Shown here: positions 47,711-50,620 of the stretch, one piece after another | Layout of the letters: each line of letters begins with the position of its first letter | How positions within the stretch are numbered: the stretch's first letter is position 1 | Origin: Atribacter laminatus | Lineage (GTDB): Bacteria; Atribacterota; Atribacteria; Atribacterales; Atribacteraceae | Direction: 5' to 3' | Assembly (NCBI RefSeq): GCF_015775515.1 | Contig: NZ_CP065383.1 | Span: 62,001-126,000, forward strand | DNA: 64,000 nucleotides | Notes under the pieces: generated by a model | The model's input: only the letters and a program-made list of their open reading frames with translations | Told to the model about the DNA's origin: nothing | The model's database searches: none | Made by a program: the position numbers and the translations under genes

Positions 47711-48976
47711 TTATCCCATCATGAAGAAATCCTTTAATTTATTAACCATTCCATGAATTTTTCCAGAAGATCCCTCGTTAAAGCGATGATCTGATTTTCT
47801 TTCCTGGCCTTCAGTAAGTGCCATTTGTAATAGCCCACAAGAAGTTGAAAATATTGGGCTCGATATGACTTGCACTTGCCCTAAGTAATTTTTACTTTCT
47901 GGAAATCCAATCCGAACCGGCATATTTAAGAGCGTTGTAGCAAATTCATTGAGCCCTCCCAAAAGCGAAGACCCGCCAGTAATAACTATTCCTCCCCGTA
48001 ATACCGACGACATGCCTGAAGCTCGAATTTCCCTTCTAATCATTAGTATCATTTCCTTCACTCGCGCTTCAATTATCTCACAGGCAAACTTCCTCTTTAC
48101 CGACCGCAGAGACTTCATGCTAATATCCTTGACTTCAATCATTTCATCATCAGGAACATATTTACTATAAACACTTCCATATTGGAGTTTTATTCTTTCT
48201 GCCTCGTCGCGGGATGTCCGGAGACCAATTGCCAAATCAGAAGTAATCAGCTCTCCTCCAACCGGTAAAATATTAGAATAATAGATAGAATCATTATAGA
48301 ATACCGCAATATCCGTTGTCCCTCCGCCGATATCTATTAAAACCGTTCCCGCTTCCTGCTCACCAGTGGTCAATACTGCCAACGCCGAGGCATAGGGTTG
48401 AAATACTGTTCGGTAAACTTCATACCCTACGCTTTGAAAACATTCAACCAAATTGTGGAGATGGTTTTCTTCAGCGGTAACCACATGGGCATTCACCTTT
48501 AAACGAGTTCCCACCAGTTTGCGAGGTTGAGCAATTCCCCGTTGATCGTCCAACGAAAACTCCTGAGGGATAACATGAATGACCGCCTGACCGTCACTGG
48601 TTATCTGAGTTCGAGTTCCCTCTATGACTTTTTCAATATCTTTTTCATATACCTCCCGACTGACTTTTCCGAGAAGTATTTCATTTTCAGCATTCCTGGA
48701 AGTAACGTAATCACCTGCAATCCCAGTATATAAAAAATTCGGTTCTTCTTTGGCAACGCTCAAGGAATTGAGAACCGACTCTTTTATCGAATGGGAAGCT
48801 TTTTCAACATCAACAACTTTTCCTTTTTTTATCCCAGACGAAGCACTCAACCCAATACCTAATATTTCGATTCCATTGGATCGAATCTTCCCGATTAACG
48901 TACAAATTTTGCTGGTTCCTACATCAACCGCTGCAATAGTTGGGTTTGATGTCTCAATATATTTAAATAATTTCAA
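47711..48976 (-). CDS. ftsA: Cell division protein FtsA
   Basis: Actin-like membrane tether of the Z-ring. The 421-residue protein has AAVDVGTSKICTLIG, IDIGGGTTDIAVF (phosphate 2), GGIVITGGSSLLGGL (adenosine motif) and the C-terminal amphipathic membrane helix GMVNKLKDFFMMG. Start overlaps ftsQ by four bases (ATGA). Confidence 0.97.
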   Translation of the reverse strand: MKLFKYIETSNPTIAAVDVGTSKICTLIGKIRSNGIEILGIGLSASSGIKKGKVVDVEKASHSIKESVLNSLSVAKEEPNFLYTGIAGDYVTSRNAENEILLGKVSREVYEKDIEKVIEGTRTQITSDGQAVIHVIPQEFSLDDQRGIAQPRKLVGTRLKVNAHVVTAEENHLHNLVECFQSVGYEVYRTVFQPYASALAVLTTGEQEAGTVLIDIGGGTTDIAVFYNDSIYYSNILPVGGELITSDLAIGLRTSRDEAERIKLQYGSVYSKYVPDDEMIEVKDISMKSLRSVKRKFACEIIEARVKEMILMIRREIRASGMSSVLRGGIVITGGSSLLGGLNEFATTLLNMPVRIGFPESKNYLGQVQVISSPIFSTSCGLLQMALTEGQERKSDHRFNEGSSGKIHGMVNKLKDFFMMG

Positions 48977-49688
48977 AAAATTTCCTCCTCGTCCTGGATA
49001 AGAACAATGTCTTTTTTCATGCGTAGATCAAAACCAACAACCTTGAGAGCTTTTACCTGGACTTCTCTCAACAAGGGTTTCAAAACCGGGATTTTTTCTT
49101 TCAAGTTTTGAACACTCTCACACTTGATAAATATATCATTTTGAAGTTGTAAAATAAACAGATTGTTATGAACCATTTTCGTCATCTTCAAATGCGTATC
49201 AAAATCGCTCAGCCAAGCACGAATAACCTCTAAAGTCATTTTAATCGAATCATTTTCGAGGGATGGAACATAAAGAGAAATTAAAAGATCGGGGTTGTCA
49301 GATGGGGTATTTACTCTTACCCCTTGATCATCGACATAAAACCAGGTATCTCCAACCACAACTTTTGCCAAGGGAGCTCTTTCCACAATCTCGATTCGAA
49401 TTAAATGAGGAAAAACCTTTTGAACTCTTACGCTTTTTACGTCGTTAATTTTTTTGATCCGGTTTTCAATTTCCCAAGTTCTTAAACCAAAAATACTCTG
49501 TCCAATTTGAATACCCGAGGCGCTTTCGATATATTTTACCGATATGCTCCGATTACCGCTCACCTCAATTTGGTTTACTGCAAACAAATTCCCTCTCATG
49601 AAGAGGCTAAAAACCAACCAGGCGATAACTCCCAGAACTAGATAAAAAAAAAGAGTTTCAAAAAAAATTGTGACTTATAATATTTCAT
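48973..49688 (-). CDS. ftsQ: Cell division protein FtsQ/DivIB, frame change at poly-T tract
   Basis: FtsQ links the early and late divisome in the periplasm. The main frame (49617 downwards) has the POTRA domain (VNQIEVSGNRSISVKYIES) and the FtsQ domain (WFYVDDQGVRV), but no start codon with a signal upstream. ATG 49688, overlapping the murB stop as ATGA, encodes MKYYKSQFFLKLFFF and then hits TAG. Adding one T to the T9 tract (A9 at 49644-49652 on the plus strand) joins that start to YLVLGVIAWLVFSLFMRG, a perfect single membrane segment. So either slippage at the tract produces FtsQ, or the tract is miscounted in the assembly. An alternative is an ATT start in the main frame without ribosome-binding site. 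Confidence 0.8.
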
Positions 49689-50620
49689 TGCCATACCTCG
49701 ATTTCATTTTCCAGAAAAATATTTCTTTCTCGTTGTACTTCTTGGCGAATCCAATCTATCAGTACCATTACATCTCGAGCTTTCGCCGCTCCACGATTGA
49801 TTATAAAATTGGAATGTTTCTCAGAAATTTGGGCGAAACCGGTTCTTAACCCCTTGAATCCCATTTGATCGATGATTTTAGCCGCATAGTCACCAGGTGG
49901 ATTTTTAAATACACAACCGGCCGACGGCCAACCCACCGGCTGAAATTGCTTACGGAGGAGGCTATTTCGACGAATATTATTCTTAATATTTTCGGTTTTA
50001 TCGGGAAAAAGCTGAAAAATGACTTTCAAAATCGTCAACCTATCTTTCTTTAATGATGACCCTCGATAAAAAAAATCCACCTTATTCCTTTCCAACCACT
50101 CTATATTACCATTATTATCCATGACTAAGATTTCTTGGATTAAATTTTTGATTTCCTGTCCGAAACAACCGGCATTAATCCGCACCGCTCCTCCCACCGT
50201 TCCCGGAATACCAACGAGAAATTCAAATCCTCCCATACTGTGGCATAGAGCAAAACTCACTAAATGCGAAAGAGGAACTCCGGCTCCACTTTCAATACGA
50301 TGGTTTCCAATACATTTCATTTCAGCATATTCGCCAGCAAGACGAACCACCACTCCTGGAAAACCTTGATCATGAACCAGAATATTTGATCCTCGTCCCA
50401 GAATTTTCCAGGGACAGTTTAAATCCTGCATTTTTAAAATTAATTTCGGGAAAACCACACCTCTTAAAACATCAACTAAAGCGACTACCCGACCACCAAT
50501 TTTCCAGGTCGTATAAAGCTTCATTTCAGCCTGTGGTATTACAATCAAGTCCGAAGAACCGGCATACTCTTTCTCAACTGATTTCCATTTTTCCTGCACA
50601 TACTGTCGGCTACCTTCCAT
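49685..50620 (-). CDS. murB: UDP-N-acetylenolpyruvoylglucosamine reductase
   Basis: Makes UDP-N-acetylmuramate. The 311-residue flavoprotein has YTTWKIGGRVVALV, LGRGSNILV, GFEFLVGIPGTVGGAVRINAG (here shortened to the central FLVGIPGTVGGA), the catalytic serine in PSAGCVFKNP and the closing ENEIEVW with the active-site Glu. It is the type I family. The start is uncertain: ATG 50620 overlaps murC by 76 bases; ATG 50524, with CAGG upstream, gives a shorter, also plausible protein. Confidence 0.92.
   Translation of the reverse strand: MEGSRQYVQEKWKSVEKEYAGSSDLIVIPQAEMKLYTTWKIGGRVVALVDVLRGVVFPKLILKMQDLNCPWKILGRGSNILVHDQGFPGVVVRLAGEYAEMKCIGNHRIESGAGVPLSHLVSFALCHSMGGFEFLVGIPGTVGGAVRINAGCFGQEIKNLIQEILVMDNNGNIEWLERNKVDFFYRGSSLKKDRLTILKVIFQLFPDKTENIKNNIRRNSLLRKQFQPVGWPSAGCVFKNPPGDYAAKIIDQMGFKGLRTGFAQISEKHSNFIINRGAAKARDVMVLIDWIRQEVQRERNIFLENEIEVWQ

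Follow-up and report, generated by a model that had tools for sequence, protein, structure and literature searches.

The closest described parallels to the genes considered here are bacterial genes decoded through slippage. In Thermus thermophilus dnaX, slippage on an A9 run in a chromosomal housekeeping gene gives products of two frames (PMC1088944); there, however, the slip yields the shorter product and the full-length protein is made without it. In Shigella mxiE and spa13 and in Citrobacter tssM, an extended product is obtained only via slippage joining overlapping frames, at 15-55% (PMC4256274), although these are accessory secretion genes confined to a narrow set of strains. Transposases of IS elements likewise carry a conserved 9-base run (A9 or T9) at a frame junction (PMC1088944), but belong to mobile elements. 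Homopolymer slippage in ordinary genes is described from the endosymbionts Buchnera and Blochmannia (PMC5009743), whose genomes are reduced and AT-rich. A 9-base A/T run of conserved length in homologues was proposed as a criterion for purposeful slippage by Baranov et al. in 2005 (PMC1088944).

In the order of Atribacter and Caldatribacterium, ftsQ and tyrA (prephenate dehydrogenase) combine features of these systems in another setting. Unlike dnaX, both have a T run and are other genes, and it is the functional protein that would need the slip. In contrast to the secretion genes and transposases, they are single-copy chromosomal core genes of division and amino acid synthesis found order-wide, and unlike in the endosymbionts the tract is kept throughout an order with a GC content of 38-56%. 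From their sequences, both proteins are apparently made only via a one-base slip by RNA polymerase or the ribosome. To programmed transcriptional slippage (+1 U) in both genes, without which neither protein would be made, we give a probability of about 0.77.

The ftsQ locus of Atribacter laminatus

The window (the whole stretch of 64,000 nucleotides that was analysed, part of one 3.10 Mb contig) carries ftsQ on the minus strand, with murB on one side and ftsA on the other. Its relevant features are as follows.

49685..50620, minus strand: murB (UDP-N-acetylenolpyruvoylglucosamine reductase), an open reading frame with a Pfam match to MurB_C (E 2.9e-29)
49695..49699, minus strand: GAGGT, from its sequence the likely Shine-Dalgarno of the ftsQ ATG, at 6-nt spacing
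49638..49688, minus strand: ftsQ leader frame, read from the sequence, which opens with ATG, codes MKYYKSQFFLKLFFFI and then meets TAG (49640-49638)
49660..49667, minus strand: T8 tract, a second possible slip site of the genus only (sequence, genome comparison)
49644..49652, minus strand: T9 slippery tract within C-T9-A, T9 in 22/23 genomes of the order
48973..49674, minus strand: FtsQ main frame with membrane helix, POTRA and C-terminal domain (translation, Pfam)
49615..49617, minus strand: TTG, the earliest start codon of the FtsQ main frame by sequence, halfway through the membrane helix

The ATG of ftsQ (49688-49686) shares bases with the murB TGA (49687-49685) as ATGA, and the GAGGT ahead of it recurs in G001-G006, G008 and G009. 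The main frame begins past a TAA (49677-49675), reading VTIFFETLFFYLVLGVIAWLVFSLFMRGN..., and its product is recognisable as FtsQ/DivIB by a membrane helix, Pfam matches to POTRA_1 (E 1.2e-16) and FtsQ_DivIB_C, and its place between murB and ftsA. An additional T in either the T9 (49652-49644) or the T8 (49667-49660) fuses the leader frame with the FtsQ frame. The earlier note had described an ATG in the murB stop that runs via T9 into TAG and two tracts at either of which an extra T joins the frames, and the sequence confirms it on each count. A slip at its alternative site, the T8, would also join the frames in the window, but this tract is limited to the genus and so is not general. This T8 lies 7 bases ahead of the T9, and in G004 it is itself a T9.

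The main frame also lacks a usable start, as had been claimed: between 49674 and 49617 it holds no ATG, GTG or TTG before the TTG at 49617, and relatives have CTG, TTC or others at that place. A non-standard or internal start (ATT, CTT, GTG or TTG within the tract or beyond it) would require no frame change, and candidates can be pointed to in this TTG and in a GTG of Caldatribacterium. Such codons vary in position and kind, however, or are missing altogether (G001, G008, G012, G014), and a possible in-frame TTG in G013 is absent in its congener G020. Initiation there would truncate the membrane helix and leave it with neither a ribosome-binding site nor a positive N-terminus, while in Caldatribacterium a TGA closes the main frame 6 nt ahead of CTT, the first codon of the tract. 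It would, moreover, leave both the conservation of the T9 and the case of tyrA unexplained. An internal start, unconserved and cutting the helix, was thus discarded as a candidate, and the whole class of explanation is very improbable.

Conservation across the order and its sister families

All 25 genomes of the order were compared. FtsQ was detected in 24, 23 of them with the tract region; in 22 of the latter C-T9-A occurs at identical ftsQ codons, read in the main frame as CTT TTT TTT TAY, with G009 as the sole exception. The genomes with T9 span four families, FtsQ identities down to ~35% and GC contents of 38-56%. Outside the tract, Phe in ftsQ is mostly encoded by TTC in the GC-richer genomes of Caldatribacterium (G017, G018 and G023). 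Of the 22 genomes that include the 5' end, 20 have their murB-adjacent start out of frame, with exactly +1 base needed. The recurrence of both the T9 and the offset start across the order excludes a chance origin.

In the remaining two genomes, G006 and G009, the ftsQ ATG is in frame with FtsQ. In G009 (L009) the tract is gone and TTA CTT GTA TAT stands in its place, a loss that is expected because an in-frame ATG removes the need for the tract. T9 is retained in G006 (L012) despite its in-frame ATG, and T9 alone is therefore no proof of need. Both exceptions agree with the rule, the start having shifted into frame and one genome then being tract-free, and thus lend it support. They group with G007 in one clade of the tree, with modest support. 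From G006 to G009 one can follow what looks like a natural stepwise loss of the slip site, in which the start came into frame and the T9 was first kept and then lost.

In the sister families f5 and f7, FtsQ is a single open frame with no A/T run of 7 or more at the homologous position, and its cytoplasmic tail is continuous with the homologous segment xFYLxIGF (KILIFYLALGFLGW and similar). The residues preceding FY are I, L, V, T or Y in these families and always Phe (TTT) in the order, an invariance that, set against this variability, suggests that the DNA tract and not the protein is under selection. The requirement for a +1-base slip at the T9, the central proposal of the earlier note, is therefore strongly supported, by the conservation of tract length, position and offset start in four families as well as by sister families that have neither tract nor offset.

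Homopolymers are error-prone and hypermutable, and for this reason an assembly error, phase variation or a decayed gene has to be weighed. The T9 recurs, however, in independent assemblies, comprising a single-contig genome, metagenome-assembled genomes (MAGs) from many groups, the single-cell OP9-cSCG, and OP9-77CS. With records that include Candidatus Caldatribacterium saccharofermentans OP9-77CS, a single-cell C. californiense assembly and MAGs of many projects, a shared error is not credible. A T10 in sister genomes, which according to the earlier note would have meant an assembly error, was looked for at ftsQ and occurs in none of them. Phase variation should also have produced some T10, but the ftsQ tract is always T9 where present; without such variation in length between ON and OFF states, a phase-variable contingency locus was rejected. 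Against decay, ftsQ and tyrA are each single-copy in G000, the genome of the window, and their downstream frames are open and conserved. Taken together, these explanations have a negligible likelihood.

A second gene, tyrA, and homopolymer runs genome-wide

Inspection of every T9/A9 run in the Caldatribacterium genomes brought up tyrA, a case that the earlier note had missed along with the order-wide spread. The tyrA frame is split in all 22 genomes in which the gene was found (orthologues L202-L223), at a T9 in 21 of them. The tract is T8 in the single-cell genome G017 (L206), either through a sequencing error or as a lineage with a different slip requirement. The first frame codes the NAD-binding domain and then closes at G-GTT-TTT-TTT-TRA, and coding resumes with the dimerisation domain in the +1-T frame (GKVFF/LTPEEHDxICAxVSHLPH); in G006, G007 and G008, from the family of the window, the zero frame stops beyond the tract rather than at it. 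The copy in G000 lies outside the window.

C1:2929453-2929962, minus strand: tyrA of G000 (L222, L243), with PDH_N and PDH_C in consecutive frames

There the first frame matches PDH_N (E 1.3e-19) and the second matches PDH_C (E 7.9e-25). In the sister families tyrA is uninterrupted, at 293-308 aa. One sister-family genome, G032, holds an extra tyrA-like copy with two in-frame stops (L229, C13:528-1283) beside an intact one.

A change from T9 to T10, a common type of mutation, would restore the frame in either gene. It is seen in 0/22 ftsQ and 0/22 tyrA tracts, which argues either for selection that maintains the offset or for harm done by T10 itself in these genomes.

T/A runs in G000 number 956 of T8, 108 of T9 and 3 of T10 or more, and the ratio between successive run lengths, taken over 434 kb of this genome, is ~0.42 for lengths 5 to 7, 0.35 for eight and 0.11 for nine. 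The scarcity of runs of at least 10 suggests strong selection against long runs, and runs of nine or more are depleted in the genome. Further T9/A9 runs do occur in G000 within ORFs that look intact. In Caldatribacterium the ftsQ and tyrA tracts are almost the sole 9-base A/T runs of the genome: G017 has one in 2.1 Mb, at ftsQ; G010 and G023 have two each, at ftsQ and tyrA; and G016 has four, these two together with one ahead of a Shine-Dalgarno sequence and one on a short contig. The control was alr of G012, whose T9 is in frame: only the congener of G012 has this run too (2/23), the longest T run at this site in the other 21 genomes being 1 to 7. At ftsQ and tyrA, in contrast to alr, the T9 sits at a frame junction, and run length and overlapping frames are conserved in homologues.

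Among ~100 of the 108 T9 sites of G000 and the genome tail, an order-conserved frame transition was found only at ftsQ and tyrA; T8/A8 junctions were surveyed over 434 kb of the same genome. No related loci were found among viral contigs. At L112 (G000:C1:1992355-1995355), three T9/A9 runs lie within 2.4 kb, two of them in near-identical context (ttatgaagAAAAAAAAActaaaaag), which suggests a short repeated element.

Level and likely consequences of the proposed slip

Translation of FtsQ would begin at the leader ATG, coupled to the stop of murB. By slipping along the T9, RNA polymerase would generate a fraction of mRNAs with U10 (or U7/U13), which would be in frame via ...FFF-YLxxG... into the membrane helix and the FtsQ body, with a predicted junction peptide spanning ...LFFFYLVLGVIAW. 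The unslipped U9 mRNA would give a short peptide (16-18 aa here) that ends right past the tract. By the same device, full-length TyrA would be assembled from the N-domain and C-domain frames, with a predicted junction peptide spanning ...SQVFFLTAQEHDR.

The same proteins would result if the ribosome instead moved back one base on U_UUU_UUU of the unedited mRNA, since both genes offer the zero-frame heptamer T_TTT_TTT. In most tyrA a stop follows immediately after the tract, and in many, though not all, of L202-L223 the tract is preceded at 5-10 nt by a GGAGG-like motif, which could be either coding (LGG) or a stimulator of ribosomal shifting. Transcriptional slippage and ribosomal frameshifting are, according to the GeneTack authors, interchangeable at some A/T runs (PMC3711429). 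Such programmed -1 frameshifting is nonetheless unlikely. ftsQ has no Shine-Dalgarno-like motif upstream of its tract, and downstream structure is not conserved (mean folding z of -0.24 for tyrA, mixed values around zero for ftsQ). A downstream pseudoknot or stem was accordingly rejected as a -1 signal, the folding z-scores being near zero. Seven Ts would suffice for the ribosome, yet all nine are kept in both genes despite their different codon phase (TTT TTT TTT A in ftsQ versus GTT TTT TTT TRA in tyrA), and the sister families have Leu at the Phe codon that holds the surplus Ts of ftsQ. Slippage by RNA polymerase is favoured by this retention of nine Ts, by the absence of both a conserved downstream structure and the ftsQ motif, and by the thinning of runs genome-wide, which starts at nine; Baranov et al. 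find selection at this length in many genomes (PMC1088944). The earlier note had named this enzyme, and of the two possible levels it is indeed the better supported, on indirect grounds that leave ribosomal frameshifting a minor share of the probability.

Coming from a share of the transcripts only, FtsQ would probably be kept low relative to MurB, FtsA and FtsZ of the same cluster, and full-length TyrA would likewise be a fraction beside the N-domain product. FtsQ is scarce in well-studied bacteria. At an efficiency like the 15-55% measured at such sites in other bacteria (PMC4256274), slippage would supply enough of so scarce a protein while probably limiting its amount, as the earlier note had proposed. 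As a speculation that we consider improbable, slipping at two unlinked T9 sites, responsive to growth conditions or nucleotide supply, might be a regulatory device common to both genes and link division, by way of FtsQ dosage, to the synthesis of aromatic amino acids through TyrA, perhaps with a polymerase adapted to slipping at T9.

A literature search found nothing relevant linking ftsQ or prephenate dehydrogenase to transcriptional slippage, or Atribacter to slippage or ftsQ. No earlier case is known to us where a decoding slip is the only route to a core divisome protein and, along with it, to a central biosynthetic enzyme. In automatic annotation, ftsQ and tyrA of these genomes are likely to be labelled as truncated or as pseudogenes, or the FtsQ start to be placed inside the membrane helix. 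If the reading is true, dependence on a decoding slip became fixed early, at the root of the order, for a divisome protein and a biosynthetic enzyme. The order would then offer natural replicates for testing why a mutation repairable by a single inserted T has stayed unrepaired, and whether slippage serves to set protein ratios.
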